Source: Rhodococcus zopfii NBRC 100606 = JCM 9919 (GTDB lineage: Bacteria; Actinomycetota; Actinomycetes; Mycobacteriales; Mycobacteriaceae). Taken from it: a DNA stretch of 64,000 nucleotides. A program made the position numbers and the translations under genes. The DNA lies in NCBI RefSeq assembly GCF_001895025.1, contig NZ_BCXI01000038.1:1-64000 (forward strand), read 5' to 3'. Of this stretch, positions 51,647 to 57,044 are shown piece by piece (the first letter of the stretch is position 1; every line of letters begins with the position of its first letter). The notes beneath the pieces were generated by a model. It searched no databases. It was not told the origin of the DNA and saw nothing but the letters and a program-made list of their open reading frames with translations.

Positions 51647-52306
51647 ATGAGTCGGGGAGCGAAGATCTCGCTGGCGCTCGTGGTCGTGTTCGTGGTTGCC
51701 GCCACCGCGATCCTGCTGGTCGGCCGCCCGGACAAAGACGCCGAGGATGGCACGGCTGCGGGCACGCCGGCCGTAGCCGCCGAGGTGGTCCGCCAGGACA
51801 GCCACCGGCTCTCCTCTGCTCCGCAGGGCAGCCCCGTGTTCGTGGAGTTCCTCGATTTCGAGTGTGAGGCATGCCGCGCGGTGTACCCGGCTATCGAGGA
51901 GCTGCGCGCCGAGTACGGGGACCGGGTCAGCTTCGTGGTGCGCTACTTCCCCCTGCCCGGCCACTTCAACTCCGAGCGCGCAGCCCGCGCGGTGGAGGCG
52001 GCGGCCCAGCAAGGCCGGCTCGAGCAGATGTACCAGCGGATGTACGAAACGCAGACCGAGTGGGGCGAGCAACGCGTCCCCAAGGACGACGTCTTCCGCG
52101 GATATGCCGTCGACCTCGGACTCGACATGGCCGCGTACGACGCGGCCTACGCAGATCCCGCCACCGCAGCACGGGTCGCGTCCGACGTCGCCGACGGCGA
52201 AGCGCTCGGAGTGCAGGGCACCCCGACGTTCTTCCTCGACGGTCAGCGCTTCGAGCCTTCCACCTACCAGGACCTCATCGATGCGTTCGACGCCGCACTC
52301 GACTGA
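51647..52306 (+). CDS. DsbA-like membrane-anchored thiol oxidase
   Basis: The 219-residue protein starts at ATG 51647 and has an N-terminal membrane anchor (ISLALVVVFVVAATAILLV). The thioredoxin fold carries FVEFLDFECEACRAVYPAIEEL with a C-E-A-C active site near residue 80, and the cis-Pro motif GVQGTPTFFLDGQRF near 195. It would oxidise Cys pairs in exported proteins. The next gene, a VKOR-type protein, overlaps it by 26 bases and would regenerate its disulfide, as is usual in actinobacteria. Confidence 0.9.
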   Translation: MSRGAKISLALVVVFVVAATAILLVGRPDKDAEDGTAAGTPAVAAEVVRQDSHRLSSAPQGSPVFVEFLDFECEACRAVYPAIEELRAEYGDRVSFVVRYFPLPGHFNSERAARAVEAAAQQGRLEQMYQRMYETQTEWGEQRVPKDDVFRGYAVDLGLDMAAYDAAYADPATAARVASDVADGEALGVQGTPTFFLDGQRFEPSTYQDLIDAFDAALD

Positions 52307-52928
52307 CGCCGTCAACCCGCCGTCCGGTGCGGCTCGTGGCGGCGCCCCCTTCGGCCGGGCGCTGTCTTGGCTGCTGCTGGTCGGCGGGCTTGTCGGCCTG
52401 GGGGCGTCGTTCGTTCTCACGGTCGAGAAGTTCACCCTCGCCGCGAATCCCGACTACATACCGACTTGCAGTCTCAATCCCGTTCTCAACTGCGGCTCGA
52501 TCATGTCCACGCCGCAGGCGGCGGTGTTCGGGTTTCCCAACTCGCTGCTCGGCATCGCCGGGTTTTCGGTGGTCGCGGCGACCGGTGCGGCGCTGCTTGC
52601 CGGCGCCCGGCTCGCCCGCTGGTACTGGCTCTCCTTGCAGGTCGGGGTGACTGCGGCGGCGGCGTTCGTGCACTGGCTGATCATCCAGAGTCTCTACGAG
52701 ATCGGCGCCTTGTGCCCGTACTGCATGATCGTCTGGGCCGTGACGGTCCCGGTGTTCTGGTACGTCACCCTGCGCAACATCACCTACGGCGCCTTCATCG
52801 TTCGGCCGCGTAGCGCCGAACAGGTTTCTGCGGCAGGGCTGCACCTGCTCCCGATCACGGTGTGGTTCCTGATCGTCGCCGCACTGGTCATCCACCGCTT
52901 CTTCTCGTACTGGTCCGGCCTGATCTGA
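52281..52928 (+). CDS. VKOR-family disulfide reoxidation protein
   Basis: The 215-residue membrane protein starts at ATG 52281, inside the end of the DsbA-like gene. Four or five helices carry the VKOR features: a loop pair in CSLNPVLNCGSIM and the active-site C-P-Y-C in IGALCPYCMIVWAV. VKOR passes electrons from DsbA-type proteins to quinone. The two proteins form a complete extracytoplasmic oxidation pair within the metal-resistance island, where exported metal-binding proteins with Cys are likely clients. Confidence 0.9.
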   Translation: MRSTPHSTDAVNPPSGAARGGAPFGRALSWLLLVGGLVGLGASFVLTVEKFTLAANPDYIPTCSLNPVLNCGSIMSTPQAAVFGFPNSLLGIAGFSVVAATGAALLAGARLARWYWLSLQVGVTAAAAFVHWLIIQSLYEIGALCPYCMIVWAVTVPVFWYVTLRNITYGAFIVRPRSAEQVSAAGLHLLPITVWFLIVAALVIHRFFSYWSGLI

Positions 52929-53144: not shown

Positions 53145-53160
53145 ATCGTCATATGACGAT
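53145..53160. promoter_or_regulatory. CmtR-type operator over the start codon
   Basis: ATCGTCATATGACGAT is a perfect 16-bp palindrome whose centre contains the ATG of the regulator gene at 53153. It fits the binding site of an ArsR/CmtR dimer that blocks its own translation start and transcription. The 52929-53144 stretch has no gene. Confidence 0.7.
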
Positions 53161-53536
53161 GAATGATGTGGATGGGTGCCTTGCCGCGGCGGGCGCCGGT
53201 TCGGAGCTGGGTGCGGCGGTGGCGTTGTTCCACAGCCTCTCCGACGGAACCCGGCTGGCGATCGTGCGCCGCCTCGCCGACGGAGAGGCGAGGGTCGCGG
53301 ACCTGGTCGAAGCGCTCGGATTGGCACAGTCGACGGTGTCGGCACACGTGGCCTGCCTGCGTGATTGCGGCCTGGTGACCGGCCGCCCGCAGGGTCGGCA
53401 GGTGTTCTACTCCCTGGCCCGACCCGAGTTGCTGGACCTGCTCGCCGCCGCCGAAACCCTCCTGGACGCAACCGGCAACGCGGTCGCACTCTGCCCGAAC
53501 TACGGCACCGACACCGGCGCGGGGGTGACGGCATGA
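53153..53536 (+). CDS. CmtR-like ArsR-family soft-metal regulator
   Basis: The 127-residue protein starts at ATG 53153 (53159 is an alternative). Its winged helix reads LFHSLSDGTRLAIVRRLADGEARVADLVEALGLAQSTVSAHVACLRDCGLVTGRPQGRQVFYSLARPELLDLL. The Cys pair in HVACLRDCGL and the later Cys in VALCPNYG match the three Cys ligands of CmtR, the mycobacterial Cd(II)/Pb(II) sensor. The next gene, a metal-exporting ATPase, starts inside its stop codon. Metal binding would release the operator at 53145-53160. Confidence 0.88.
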   Translation: MTMNDVDGCLAAAGAGSELGAAVALFHSLSDGTRLAIVRRLADGEARVADLVEALGLAQSTVSAHVACLRDCGLVTGRPQGRQVFYSLARPELLDLLAAAETLLDATGNAVALCPNYGTDTGAGVTA

Positions 53537-55491
53537 GCGACGCCTGCGGCTGCGGCCACGACGAACCCCGCCCCGAGGGCGAGGAAGAACACGAACCCGA
53601 GAAGCTGTGGCAGATCACCGAGATCCGGGCCGCCGCGGCCGCGGGTGTGCTGCTGGTCGCCGCGCTGATCGTCGGCTGGAGCGGCGGCCCCCACGCGGTG
53701 AAACTGACCCTCGAAGCACTCGCGTTGATCGTCGCCGGCTACACCTTCGTCCCTTCCACCCTCACCCGGCTGGTGAAAGGCAAGATCGGCGTCGGGACCC
53801 TGATGACGATCGCCGCGGTCGGCGCCGTCCTGCTCGGCGAGGTCGGCGAGGCTGCGATGCTGGCGTTCCTGTTCGCCATCAGCGAGGGCCTCGAGGAGTA
53901 CGCGGTCACCCGCACCCGCCGCGGTCTGCGCGCCCTGTTGTCCCTGGTCCCGGACACCGCCACCGTCCTTCGCGACGGCCGGGAACAGGTCGTCGCGCCG
54001 ACCGAGCTGCGGCTCGGAGAGATCATGATCGTCAAACCGGGTGAGCGGATCGCCACCGACGGCACCATCCGGTCCGGGCGCACCGCTCTGGACACCTCGG
54101 CGATCACCGGGGAATCGGTGCCGGTCGAGGCCGGCCCGGGTGCGGAGGTGTTCGCCGGGTCGATCAACGGCACCGGTGTCCTCGAGGTCGAGGTCACCGC
54201 CGGCGCCGAGAACAACTCGCTGGCCAAGATCGTGAAGATCGTCGAGGCCGAGCAGTCCCGCAAGGGTGAGGCGCAACGTTTGGCCGACAAGATCGCCAAG
54301 CCGCTGGTCCCGGGGGTGATGGTCGCGGCGGCACTGATTGCCGCGATCGGCAGTGTGTTCGGCGATCCCCTGGTGTGGATAGAACGGGCCCTGGTCGTGT
54401 TGGTCGCGGCGTCCCCGTGTGCGCTGGCGATTGCGATTCCGGTGACGGTGGTCGCTGCGATCGGTGCCGCCTCCAAGCTCGGTGTCCTGGTCAAGGGTGG
54501 TGCCGCCCTCGAAGCCCTCGGCCGCATCCGCACCGTCGCGCTCGACAAGACCGGCACCCTCACCCGCAACCAGCCCGCCGTGATCGACGTCGCCACCGCG
54601 AACGGCACCACCCGCGACGACGTCCTCGCGGTGGCCGCAGCATTGGAGGCGCGCAGCGAACACCCCCTCGCCCGAGCGATTCTCGCCGCCGTCGACGACT
54701 ACGAACCCGCCGACGACGTCGATGCCGTGACCGGCGCCGGACTGACCGGCCGCATCGACAGCACACCGGTTCGACTCGGTCGGCCCGGCTGGATCGACCC
54801 GGGCCCGCTCGCCACGGACATCGAGCGGATGCAGCACGCCGGCGCCACTGCGGTCCTGATCGAACGCGCCGGAACCGTGATCGGGGCGGTCGCCGTCCGC
54901 GACGAACTCCGACCCGAGGCACACGAGGTGATCGCCGGCCTGCGCCGCGATGGCTACCAGGTCGCGATGCTCACCGGCGACAACGACCGCACCGCCCGCG
55001 CCCTGGCCGCCGATGTCGGGATCGACGAGGTGCACGCGGACCTGCGGCCAGAGGACAAGGCCCGCATCGTCGAAACCCTCCGCGAGCAGCGGCCGACCGC
55101 GATGGTCGGCGACGGCGTCAACGACGCCCCCGCCCTCGCCACCGCCGACCTCGGCATCGCGATGGGCGCGATGGGCACCGACGTGGCCATCGAAACCGCC
55201 GACGTCGCCCTGATGGGTGAGGATCTGCGGCACCTGCCCCAAGCGTTGGCGCACGCTCGCCGCTCCCGGACGATCATGCTGCAGAACGTCGGCCTGTCGC
55301 TGGCGATCATCACCGTCCTGATGCCGCTGGCCCTGTTCGGGGTCCTGGGGCTGGCCGCGGTCGTCCTCGTGCACGAGGTCGCCGAGATCGTGGTCATCGC
55401 CAACGGTGTCCGCGCCGGCCGCACCCGCGCCCTCACCGCCCCCGCAGCGGCCGCGCCCGCACCGGTTCCGGCGACCGCGTCGCACGCATGA
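53533..55491 (+). CDS. P1B-type soft-metal exporting ATPase (CadA-like)
   Basis: The 652-residue protein has a short Cys/His N-terminus (MSDACGCGHDEP) in place of a full heavy-metal-associated domain. P1B hallmarks are present: TGES in ALDTSAITGESVPVE, the metal-site SPC in LVVLVAASPCALAIAIP, DKTGT in TVALDKTGTLTRNQP, the SEHPLA motif, and GDGVNDAPAL. The SPC motif with a CmtR regulator suggests Cd(II), Pb(II) or Zn(II) export. The ATG overlaps the regulator's stop, and the following lspA gene overlaps its stop by four bases. Confidence 0.93.
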   Translation: MSDACGCGHDEPRPEGEEEHEPEKLWQITEIRAAAAAGVLLVAALIVGWSGGPHAVKLTLEALALIVAGYTFVPSTLTRLVKGKIGVGTLMTIAAVGAVLLGEVGEAAMLAFLFAISEGLEEYAVTRTRRGLRALLSLVPDTATVLRDGREQVVAPTELRLGEIMIVKPGERIATDGTIRSGRTALDTSAITGESVPVEAGPGAEVFAGSINGTGVLEVEVTAGAENNSLAKIVKIVEAEQSRKGEAQRLADKIAKPLVPGVMVAAALIAAIGSVFGDPLVWIERALVVLVAASPCALAIAIPVTVVAAIGAASKLGVLVKGGAALEALGRIRTVALDKTGTLTRNQPAVIDVATANGTTRDDVLAVAAALEARSEHPLARAILAAVDDYEPADDVDAVTGAGLTGRIDSTPVRLGRPGWIDPGPLATDIERMQHAGATAVLIERAGTVIGAVAVRDELRPEAHEVIAGLRRDGYQVAMLTGDNDRTARALAADVGIDEVHADLRPEDKARIVETLREQRPTAMVGDGVNDAPALATADLGIAMGAMGTDVAIETADVALMGEDLRHLPQALAHARRSRTIMLQNVGLSLAIITVLMPLALFGVLGLAAVVLVHEVAEIVVIANGVRAGRTRALTAPAAAAPAPVPATASHA

Positions 55492-55988
55492 CCGGCACAC
55501 CGGTGTCGAGGCCGCGGCGGCCGCGGCGACTGTTGCTCGTCGTGGCCGCCGGGCTGCTCGCGGTCGCGTTGATCATCGACCCGATTGCCCGGCACATTCT
55601 CGCGGGCGGCCGCATCCTCGACCTCGGGGTGCTGGAGTTGCGGCTGACCTACAACACCGGAGTGGCATTCAGCATGGGCAGTCAGCTGCCCACCCCGCTG
55701 CTGCTCGCGGTCACCGGGCTGATCACCGCCGGTGTCGGCGTGTATGCGTGGCGGTCTGCCCCCACCAGCACCTGGCCCACCACCGCCGGATTGGCGGCGA
55801 TCTTCGCCGGCGCTGCCGCGAACGTCATCGACCGCACCCTCGACGGCAAGGTCACCGACTACTTCCACACCGGATGGTTCGCCACCTTCAACCTGGCCGA
55901 CACCTTTCTCACCTGCGGCGTGGCCCTGCTGTTCATCGCGATGCTCACCGAAGCCCGCACCGAAACGCCGAAGGAGACCACGCCATGA
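55488..55988 (+). CDS. lspA: Signal peptidase II (lipoprotein peptidase)
   Basis: The 166-residue membrane protein has four helices and the LspA motifs: RLTYNTGVAFSMG, GAAANVIDRTLDGKVTDYF with a catalytic Asp, and TFNLADTFLTCG with the second catalytic Asp. LspA removes lipoprotein signal peptides. A second copy of lspA in Cd/Pb/Zn-export operons is a known arrangement. It is translationally coupled to the ATPase before it and to the DUF3703 gene after it. Confidence 0.93.
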   Translation: MTGTPVSRPRRPRRLLLVVAAGLLAVALIIDPIARHILAGGRILDLGVLELRLTYNTGVAFSMGSQLPTPLLLAVTGLITAGVGVYAWRSAPTSTWPTTAGLAAIFAGAAANVIDRTLDGKVTDYFHTGWFATFNLADTFLTCGVALLFIAMLTEARTETPKETTP

Positions 55989-56332
55989 CAGCGATGCCCG
56001 CCCCGGTCCGGGACGCCTACACCACCGAAATGACCGCTGCTGCCGCCGCGACCGAGGCCACCGAACGTTGGCGGCACCTCGAGCGGGCCCACATCCTGTC
56101 CCAGCCCTACCCGTGGCCGCACACCCGCAACCACTTCGCCATGTTCACACTTGCTCTGCGGCAACACGATCGGCGTGAGGCACTCGGCCAGGTGATCCGC
56201 ATCATCGTTGCCGCCCCGGGGTCGGCGCTGGGTCGCTACCCCGAGGGCAACACCGGCCGCACCCGCGCCGGTCTGATGACCCCGATGCCGATCCCGCCCG
56301 ATCTGGCCGCCGTCGTGGCAGCGCCCGAATGA
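55985..56332 (+). CDS. DUF3703 protein
   Basis: The 115-residue protein starts at ATG 55985, overlapping the lspA stop. RWRHLERAHILSQPYPWPHTRNHFAMFTLALRQHDRREALGQVIRIIVAAPGSALGRYPEGNTG is the DUF3703 pattern, with conserved His and the GRYPxGNTG loop. The family is repeatedly found beside metal-resistance genes, but its biochemical role is unknown. It is the last gene of the CmtR operon; a GC-rich hairpin follows near 56365-56390. Confidence 0.88.
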   Translation: MTAMPAPVRDAYTTEMTAAAAATEATERWRHLERAHILSQPYPWPHTRNHFAMFTLALRQHDRREALGQVIRIIVAAPGSALGRYPEGNTGRTRAGLMTPMPIPPDLAAVVAAPE

Positions 56333-56411
56333 CCGGAACGATCTCCGGTCCGTTTTCGGTTTCCTCGCGGGCGCGGCGCCGCGCCGCGGGTGAGCGCTGA
56401 CCAGGGCTGGG

Positions 56412-56522
56412 TCAGCAGCACATCATTGCGGCGCACATGTCACAGCACATGTCACACATGCCGGTGGCCATCATCACCTGGCAGTTCCACCAGCTCTGCA
56501 GATTCGTCAGCAGATCGATCAT
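56412..56522 (-). CDS. Cys/Met-rich metal-binding peptide candidate
   Basis: ATG 56522 gives a 36-residue peptide with an ordinary helical start (MIDLLTNLQSWWNCQ) and a C-terminus of M-C-D-M-C-C-D-M-C-A-A-M-M-C-C type. It has seven Cys and eight Met in total, and both classes are ligands for Cu(I) or other soft metals. It is read divergently from the BlaI/CopY-type gene at 56667 and shares the palindromic operator at 56566-56604. Ribosome site GAGAAG is weak. It may be a small metallothionein-like or metallochaperone peptide. It does not match mycobacterial MymT as I know it. Confidence 0.5.
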   Translation of the reverse strand: MIDLLTNLQSWWNCQVMMATGMCDMCCDMCAAMMCC

Positions 56523-56565
56523 CAGCTTCTCGTCTCTGGCCCGGCCGAACGCCTTGGCATCCGAC

Positions 56566-56604
56566 CTATCTACGTATCTACTTACGTAGTACGTACGTAG
56601 ATAG
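56566..56604. promoter_or_regulatory. BlaI/CopY-type operator cluster in a divergent promoter
   Basis: CTATCTACGTA (56566-56576) and its exact complement TACGTAGATAG (56594-56604) form a long inverted repeat. Between them, CTACTTACGTAGTACG adds further TACGTA half-sites. BlaI/MecI-type regulators bind TAC...GTA dyads. The cluster lies between the Cys/Met-rich peptide gene and the regulator gene and could control both. Confidence 0.7.
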
Positions 56605-56666
56605 TAGATGGTGGATGGACCGGAAAGGCACCACCCCACGATGGGGGAGCGATGCCGTAGGAGGTA

Positions 56667-57044
56667 GTGGTGCGGGTGAACGGATTCGGCGAGCTCGAGG
56701 CGGTGGTGATGGACCGCCTGTGGAACCGTACGGGAGAGAGCACGGTACGAGAGGTGTTCGACGAGATAGCGGACGACCGTGAGATCGCCTACACCACCGT
56801 GATGTCGACAATGGACAACCTGCACCGCAAAGGATGGCTCGCCCGGGTCCGCAAGGGCAAGGCATTCAGCTACTGGACCACCCTCACCCGCGAAGAACAC
56901 AGTGCGCGCCTGATGCGCGAAGCCTTCGACGCTGCAGGGCAATCCGATCTGGTGCTCACCCATTTCGTCGAGCAGATGAGCGCCGAGGAATCAGCCCGGG
57001 TGCGCGCCGCGCTGCACCGCCTGACCGACGGGAAGGCACCGTGA
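56667..57044 (+). CDS. BlaI/MecI/CopY-type regulator
   Basis: The 125-residue protein starts at the GTG at 56667 or 56670 after AGGAGG. FGELEAVVMDRLWNRTGESTVREVFDEIADDREIAYTTVMSTMDNLHRKGWLARVRKGKAFSYWTTLTREEHSARLMREAF is the family winged helix with its conserved Y-T-T-V-x-x-x-M-x-x-L-x-x-K-G-W core. BlaI-type regulators are cleaved by a BlaR/M56 protease, while CopY-type ones respond to copper. No M56 gene follows: the frame starting at 57041 is short and does not resemble BlaR. A copper-type signal is therefore more likely here, but is not shown. Confidence 0.88.
   Translation: MVRVNGFGELEAVVMDRLWNRTGESTVREVFDEIADDREIAYTTVMSTMDNLHRKGWLARVRKGKAFSYWTTLTREEHSARLMREAFDAAGQSDLVLTHFVEQMSAEESARVRAALHRLTDGKAP

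Follow-up and report, generated by a model that had tools for sequence, protein, structure and literature searches.

A conserved family of Cys/Met-rich micro-peptides beside BlaI- and ArsR-type regulators in Rhodococcus and its relatives, with a probable role in metal sequestration

The 64,000-nucleotide stretch of Rhodococcus zopfii DNA analysed here in full (hereafter the window) encodes a 36-residue peptide that, judged by its copies in Rhodococcus and relatives, belongs to a conserved gene family, and which probably serves as a metal-induced, metal-sequestering micro-peptide, acting like a miniature metallothionein, under a BlaI-repressed promoter. The peptide gene lies between a metal-resistance operon and a divergent repressor gene, in the following order:

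53153..53527, plus strand, ArsR/SmtB metalloregulator of a Cd/Pb-type operon (NF033788, E 3.2e-26, over cut-off)
53533..55491, plus strand, heavy-metal P1B ATPase, CadA type (TIGR01525, E 2.2e-176)
55488..55988, plus strand, signal peptidase II (LspA) of the metal operon (TIGR00077, 80 bits against 73.95)
55985..56332, plus strand, DUF3703 protein, convergent with the peptide gene (PF12487, E 2.9e-39)
56412..56522, minus strand, Cys/Met-rich peptide gene, 36 aa, stop codon included, conserved family
56566..56604, no strand, long inverted repeat, probable BlaI operator (from its arms and the uniqueness of a 12-mer)
56592..56605, minus strand, operator core ACTATCTACGTACG, the 13-mer beginning 82 nt 5' of the peptide ATG
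56670..57044, plus strand, repressor of the BlaI family (PF03965), 124 aa, Cys-free and without an M56 gene beside it

The peptide, MIDLLTNLQSWWNCQVMMATGMCDMCCDMCAAMMCC (36 codons; ATG at 56520-56522 and stop codon at 56412, minus strand), contains 7 Cys, 8 Met and 3 Asp, is devoid of Lys, Arg and His, and has M, C or D at 13 of its last 15 positions, so that the frame, its Cys and Met counts and the almost pure Met/Cys/Asp character of its C-terminal part are all as the first-pass annotation had described them. It is the sole ATG-started ORF of its class (20-60 codons, 5 or more each of Cys and Met, Cys+Met at least 35%) across the 64-kb window, and when the whole window was simulated 20 times with a second-order Markov model, no ORF of this class arose. 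The Shine-Dalgarno-like sequence of the window copy is weak (gacgagaag), that of many relatives, just 5' of the ATG, is strong (e.g. gaggaggtgaaac); a simple scan of 56300-56750 yielded no sigma-70 promoter, and Rfam gave no match anywhere in the window. Compared with Pfam (no family at E up to 1), with NCBIfam (none at E up to 10; a single chance-level match, E 4, for a 35-aa relative) and, as a profile (A2), with the PDB (a single match, E 1.2), the peptide belongs to no catalogued family. AlphaFold2 predicted a helix at residues 2-19 followed by a disordered tail, with low confidence (mean pLDDT 62.8), a model too weak to warrant a fold search.

Relatives of the peptide are patchily distributed. 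The A2 profile, built from ten members, gave matches in 23 genomes out of 401 from the taxonomic family (7 of 31 genera) with E-values of 1e-9 to 1e-15, and the peptide is present in 4 of 18 genomes of the host's own genus and in 8 of 28 genomes of genus g24. In a sample of the order, two of 397 genomes matched, both from the host's own genus and both already known, and the matches in four of 394 genomes from a sample of the class, not counting the host's own genome (E 2e-4 to 6e-3), were judged on reading to be due to chance. The named genome collection holds five peptide loci (four in Rhodococcus and one in Skermania), and a tblastn search with the N-terminal 19-21 residues hit 12 of 72,556 plasmid records (11 Rhodococcus, 1 Prescottella), 10 of which were read around the match. 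No listed feature underlies any of the 12 plasmid matches, in a gene table known to be incomplete, in keeping with the earlier remark that genes of this size are easily missed. Phages gave no match with the peptide type of locus L010, and a phage or viral origin was rejected when none of 32 pattern matches in viral contigs turned out to be a relative. Searches of the open-licence literature found no paper naming this peptide family.

Members share the consensus NLQxWWxCQxMMxxG followed by a Cys/Met tail. Across 16 aligned members (alignment A3), N7, Q9, C14, M17 and C30 are invariant, and L8, W11, W12, M18, C23 and M29 nearly so. For the whole ORF, pN was lower than pS in 18 of 18 differing pairs (20 pairs compared, 2 identical; pairs not independent), and in the 12-codon core, with pairs of 20 distinct sequences pooled, pS was 0.59 and pN 0.08, the latter being lowered because the core was chosen by motif. 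By these measures the peptide is under purifying selection. The first-pass annotation had staked its proposal on conservation of the frame and of the Cys/Met positions, and relatives beside BlaI do keep the frame, the N-terminal core and a tail of Cys/Met character; on this comparative evidence the window ORF is a genuine small gene, real and conserved, and apparently unannotated. The 21 distinct peptides span 29-53 aa, with 3-7 Cys, 5-13 Met and 1-3 Trp, and the Cys count goes down to 3 in some BlaI-type copies, which is few for a metallothionein. Two copies have decayed, L012 through loss of Trp and Cys and a run-on tail, and L073 with its tail out of frame. At the long end of the range stands a 53-aa member (L074:5313-5474), in which repeats of a DMC unit lengthen the tail, as though metal sites had been multiplied.

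To place the peptide in its genomic setting, 35 loci (the window, 10 plasmid regions and 24 genome stretches) were compared and grouped at a minimum of 90% over at least 800 nt around the start codon into 21 clusters. The homologues next to BlaI that the earlier annotation had proposed to look for are in the majority, the divergent side being occupied by BlaI in 14 of the 21 distinct loci, by ArsR-CadA in 5 and by neither in 2. In two of the 14 BlaI-type clusters (L015 and L052/L053), BlaI is separated from the peptide by other elements. In the L052/L053 cluster, a gene annotated as of iron-dependent-repressor type and a small ORF intervene between BlaI and the peptide. On plasmid pDK1 (L015:2569-3798), an IS256-family transposase lies between BlaI and the peptide with its operator, a position that would separate BlaI from the shared operator. 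In the five ArsR-type clusters, ArsR is followed by a P-type ATPase, with LspA similarity in all five and, within the stretches read, DUF3703 in 3. The peptide thus occurs beside BlaI plus operator or beside ArsR, that is, one family appears wired to two unrelated metal-type switches. The locus with neither regulator in L009/L059 lies ~1.7 kb upstream of a TlpA-TlpA-CcdA-ResB run. One further copy (L065:3925-5347), lacking BlaI, ArsR and the operator, adjoins toxin-antitoxin-like genes, which we take to be a RES/Xre-like pair.

The divergent gene of the window encodes a BlaI-type repressor (Penicillinase_R/BlaI, PF03965, E 1.5e-22, 80.5 bits against a cut-off of 22.6), as had been noted; its labelling as BlaI/CopY-type does not extend to CopY, since the protein scores below the cut-off of TIGR02698 (30.6 bits against 121.95) and contains no Cys at all, as do 4 of 4 aligned relatives, and the absence of Cys makes the regulator BlaI-like rather than CopY-like. 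The earlier statement that the regulator lacks the usual BlaR-type protease is true of the window copy, where no M56 gene lies beside BlaI and where the sole M56 match in the host genome (E up to 0.001) is on contig 1, next to another BlaI-type gene; it fails for the family, an M56 gene standing next to BlaI in 13 of the 14 BlaI-type clusters, with the window as the only exception.

Between the peptide gene and the divergent BlaI-type gene sits the long inverted repeat that had been described there, with arms at 56566-56582 and 56588-56604 of 17 nt each and 88% complementary. The 12-mer CTATCTACGTAC, with at most one mismatch, has two sites in the host genome (146 contigs), both inside this repeat, and its reversed control has one. 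A core of consensus ACTATCTAyGTACG is found upstream of the peptide in all 14 BlaI-type loci. When 24 upstream regions were compared (15 BlaI-type, 7 ArsR-type and 2 other), CTATCTACGTACG was present in all 15 BlaI-type regions (14 clusters), 14 of them with no mismatch and one with a single mismatch, whereas its best match had at least 4 mismatches in 7 of 7 ArsR-type regions (5 clusters) and in both other regions. In 14 of the BlaI-type regions it begins 65-82 nt from the start codon used; in the decayed L073 the distance, counted from the start of the match, is 105 nt.

The same elements were sought genome-wide. Perfect copies of the 12-mer CTATCTACGTAC number 14 across 14 genomes, of which 11 precede the peptide, two lie in the copper region of G237 and one falls within the coding region of an unrelated gene. 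Once a single mismatch was allowed, the 12-mer did not outnumber its reversed control in these 14 genomes (58 vs 73 matches summed), and only perfect 12-mers and the longer palindrome were therefore used. The palindrome ACTATCTNNGTACNNAGATAGT, with at most two mismatches, was found in 43 of 401 family genomes as against 2 of 401 for the reversed pattern; the degenerate site of the window itself is outside these 43 genomes. When 18 chosen palindrome regions were searched with query proteins, BlaI lay near 12 and M56 near 11, a CopA, CysK, MFS or multicopper oxidase gene was present in 6, and two had no query gene. A second, shorter inverted repeat, ACTATCTCGCGTAGTA, was observed between the peptide and the subsequent TlpA-type gene at L052:5716-5790 (= L003:1597-1670).

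Which metal is involved may differ between locus types. Of the 14 BlaI-type clusters, 6 have copper-named neighbours (L051, L013, L014, L015, L016 and L070) and 4 adjoin a CadA-type operon (the window, the L010 cluster, L052/L053 and L074), so that copper is the likeliest candidate metal at BlaI-type loci, on the evidence of gene neighbourhoods, but not the sole one; L060, L064, L072 and L073 had neither in the stretch read. In L051, CopC-CopD follows 120 nt past the peptide (PF04234, E 2.2e-17; PF05425, E 6.5e-10). The other five copper-flanked clusters share the order BlaI-M56, then LpqS, a CysK-type enzyme and an MFS transporter, the LpqS of L013 matching NF052429 with E 1.6e-33, over cut-off. 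The RicR copper regulon of M. tuberculosis includes lpqS, cysK2, Rv0849, mmcO and mymT (PMC10470581), and from gene order we infer that the CysK and MFS proteins of these loci correspond to CysK2 and Rv0849. A plasmid of R. oxybenzonivorans, which carries the peptide elsewhere, has two perfect palindromes in a copper region comprising a CopA-type ATPase (TIGR01511, over cut-off), an annotated multicopper oxidase, a heavy-metal-associated protein and a metal-sensitive regulator.

At ArsR-type loci, cadmium or lead is likelier, as these copies adjoin CadA-type ATPases. The peptides themselves differ in the same sense: Cys/(Cys+Met) was 0.45-0.55 in ArsR-type peptides (n=5) vs 0.24-0.47 in BlaI-type peptides (n=14), after exclusion of the two decayed copies (L012, L073) and of the two peptides that have neither regulator beside them (Mann-Whitney p 0.0018, for related sequences and uncorrected for kinship). 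Cys-richer ArsR-type and Met-richer BlaI-type peptides are the direction expected for Cd/Pb vs Cu(I), a trend that is suggestive only. The window copy, at 0.47, falls within the ArsR range. On the side of the peptide gene away from BlaI, and convergent with it, lies the ArsR-CadA-LspA-DUF3703 operon, the ATPase of which exceeds the cut-off of the Cd family model TIGR01512 (E 9.3e-158, 526 bits against 313.5) and barely reaches that of the Cu model TIGR01511 (397.7 against 397); its ArsR/SmtB regulator matches the CmtR model NF047906 below that model's cut-off (E 2.7e-18). With a BlaI operator yet a Cd/Pb-type operon adjacent, the window copy is the one for which the inducer is least certain. 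Just upstream of this operon, a VKOR-domain protein is encoded at 51864-52928 (PF07884, E 1.7e-43), VKOR being a disulphide-forming enzyme family. There is good support, at the level of the family, for the initial idea of a small and new metal peptide controlled through a BlaI-type operator. Whether the metal is copper or cadmium may depend on the locus, BlaI-type loci leaning to copper and ArsR-type loci to cadmium/lead.

In the mechanism that we favour, the divergent BlaI would repress the peptide promoter through the intervening palindrome, and an excess of soft metal, most likely copper at BlaI-type loci, would switch the peptide on. The conserved N-terminal NLQxWWxCQxMM, probably a helix, would provide a fixed Cys/Met/Trp site, and the Cys/Met tail would bind Cu(I), or Cd/Pb at ArsR-type loci, via thiolate and thioether ligands. 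The peptide would be located in the cytosol and would hold the metal until exporters clear it, thereby conferring protection. The helix with its Cys/Met tail, which is almost free of basic residues, the location of the gene next to BlaI or ArsR and the DMC repeats of L074 all fit an on-demand metal-binding peptide. Against this mechanism count the weak ribosome-binding site of the window copy, its BlaI with neither an M56 partner nor a Cys by which metal could relieve repression, the CadA-type operon beside four BlaI-type clusters, the two clusters in which BlaI is set apart from the peptide, the copies with as few as 3 Cys, the two loci with neither regulator and the patchy distribution of the family.

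Another way of reading the neighbourhoods, to which we give a minor share of the probability, is that the peptide traffics copper, handing Cu(I) to TlpA-CcdA-ResB or CopC-CopD systems or keeping their thiols reduced. Annotated TlpA genes begin 29-95 nt past the peptide stop in L013-L017 and TlpA similarity begins 64 nt past the peptide in L052, the CopC-CopD pair of L051 lies 120 nt past it, a thioredoxin-fold gene (PF00578) is second past the peptide in L060, and the near-invariant N-terminal segment suggests a specific partner; however, no such gene lies 3' of the peptide in the window or in L008/L061, where the neighbour is convergent. This same arrangement bears on the idea that the short ORF is a Cys/Met leader, the translation of which controls downstream genes, with the peptide itself dispensable. 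Cys-rich regulatory uORFs are known in mycobacteria, and at some loci the short ORF is closely upstream of TlpA or CopC, but the peptide gene of the window, of L008/L061 and of L063 is followed by a convergent gene or gene-like ORF, so that there is nothing to attenuate and a leader role is unlikely as a general rule, and the most conserved part is NLQxWWxCQxMM, not a run of Cys. We regard this idea as improbable.

Copper-linked RiPPs such as methanobactin exist, and the combination of a conserved, leader-like N-terminus with a variable Cys tail could be that of a precursor, leader plus core, of a modified metallophore. However, the annotation of some 4 kb around ten plasmid copies (from a gene table that is incomplete) names no RiPP-type modification enzyme, nor do the scans of part of the window ORFs near the peptide, and this renders a RiPP precursor decidedly unlikely. 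Least credible of all, to the point of being barely worth entertaining, is a toxin, be it of a small toxin-antitoxin system or membrane-active: the peptides are short (29-36 aa), most contain a Trp pair and L065 has its RES/Xre-like neighbours, but BlaI or ArsR adjoins 19 of the 21 distinct loci, and the helix is no more amphipathic than its own shuffles in any of the seven peptides tested, so that an amphipathic membrane helix was rejected.

A metal-sequestering peptide under BlaI or ArsR has several partial counterparts. Bacterial metallothioneins are small, very Cys-rich proteins without aromatic residues that hold several metal ions via thiolates, and MymT, the copper metallothionein of M. 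tuberculosis, is longer than the peptide described here. Like MymT, the latter is a small Cys-containing product of what may be a copper regulon; the RicR regulon lists lpqS, cysK2, Rv0849 and a multicopper oxidase together with MymT (PMC10470581), and in 5 of the 14 BlaI-type clusters LpqS-CysK-MFS genes come after BlaI-M56. In contrast, MymT is under the CsoR paralogue RicR and our peptide under BlaI, and our peptide is Met-rich and without Pfam, NCBIfam or PDB relative. SocAB are further small ORFs named as part of the same RicR copper regulon (PMC10470581). CopY/CopR belong to a related helix-turn-helix repressor family, and copper genes adjoin part of our loci; CopY carries CxC motifs at its C-terminus and acts at the operator RNYKACANNYGTMRNY (PMC7253601), whereas the window BlaI, without Cys, is without such motifs, and the site here centres on TACGTACGTA. 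Compared by eye with RNYKACANNYGTMRNY, TACGTACGTA carries a G at a place where the ten inner bases of the former call for A, and the window deviates in its 3' flank as well. The BlaI repressor and, in most BlaI-type clusters, its M56 protease partner recall BlaI-BlaR (MecI-MecR), but the apparent target here is a metal-type peptide and the window copy is without the partner. In the lead operon of C. metallidurans, the Cys-rich Pb-binding product PbrD, far larger than our peptide, is encoded beside a P-type ATPase and an LspA-type peptidase.

A second peptide family, MNPxxMxCxWxCxMMxxCCxM (e.g. MNPMKMLCDWMCSMMASCCQM; variants of 21-25 aa in other Nocardiaceae), came to light near this palindrome in a different genus, most copies being preceded by a strong ribosome-binding site; it resembles the window peptide in composition and position, without clear sequence kinship. 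At E up to 1, 33 genomes of that genus out of 150 have a match, and 28 still do at E up to 0.01, some with several copies; tblastn matched 19 plasmid records (18 Rhodococcus, 1 Nocardia) with weak E-values of 0.1-0.6, none of them over a listed feature in the incomplete plasmid gene table. Examples are at L148:15956-16021, L151:5018-5086 and L191:5001-5069 and in loci L165-L189. In L148, L153, L166 and L168-L173 (L148 and L168 being the same place, as are L153 and L171), the peptide lies between a multicopper oxidase gene and the palindrome, followed by BlaI; in L151, it is divergent from BlaI-M56 and beside CopA. In R. erythropolis PR4 and Rhodococcus sp. NJ-530, it is divergent from a heavy-metal-responsive regulator and directly before ArsR-ATPase genes, the NJ-530 frame extending beyond the usual stop. 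Other examples (among them L177, L179-L182, L185, L187 and L189) had no query gene within 1.5 kb.

These two families raise the possibility, which we put forward tentatively and hold somewhat less firmly than its negation, that Nocardiaceae possess overlooked micro-metallothioneins of 20-55 residues as outputs of metal switches. At least two families, NLQxWWxCQxMM-tail and MNPxxMxCxWxCxMM, without evident sequence kinship, would be placed under various regulators (BlaI-M56, ArsR and apparently MerR), the Cys:Met ratio of their tails being tuned to the metal sensed. If so, BlaI-M56 together with the palindrome ACTATCTNNGTACNNAGATAGT would form a copper-response circuit in the place that RicR takes in M. 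tuberculosis; no description of such a circuit turned up in searches of open-licence papers, judged by titles and abstract openings. If the peptides are confirmed, metal resistance in rhodococci gains a step of sequestration, a set of short peptides becomes available for testing Cys:Met ratio against preference for Cu or Cd/Pb, and the peptides point to a BlaI-M56 copper-response circuit.

Two further small proteins were seen near such palindromes. A Met-rich, membrane-like protein (MQQLLLGVAVLACPIGMGLMMWMMMRGG...) adjoins a BlaI-type palindrome on plasmids of R. oxybenzonivorans and R. pseudokoreensis (L112:6915-7103, L115 near 2508-2828). At L122:1977-2117 (= the L152 place), a 46-aa ORF, MAVTYTAGGARPLMWCCGETMMAMPMDACPCCANMKEPCPCCAGKM, which failed the ribosome-binding-site filter, lies near a degenerate palindrome in an ArsR-CadA-DUF3703-like region and is possibly a third small Cys/Met peptide.
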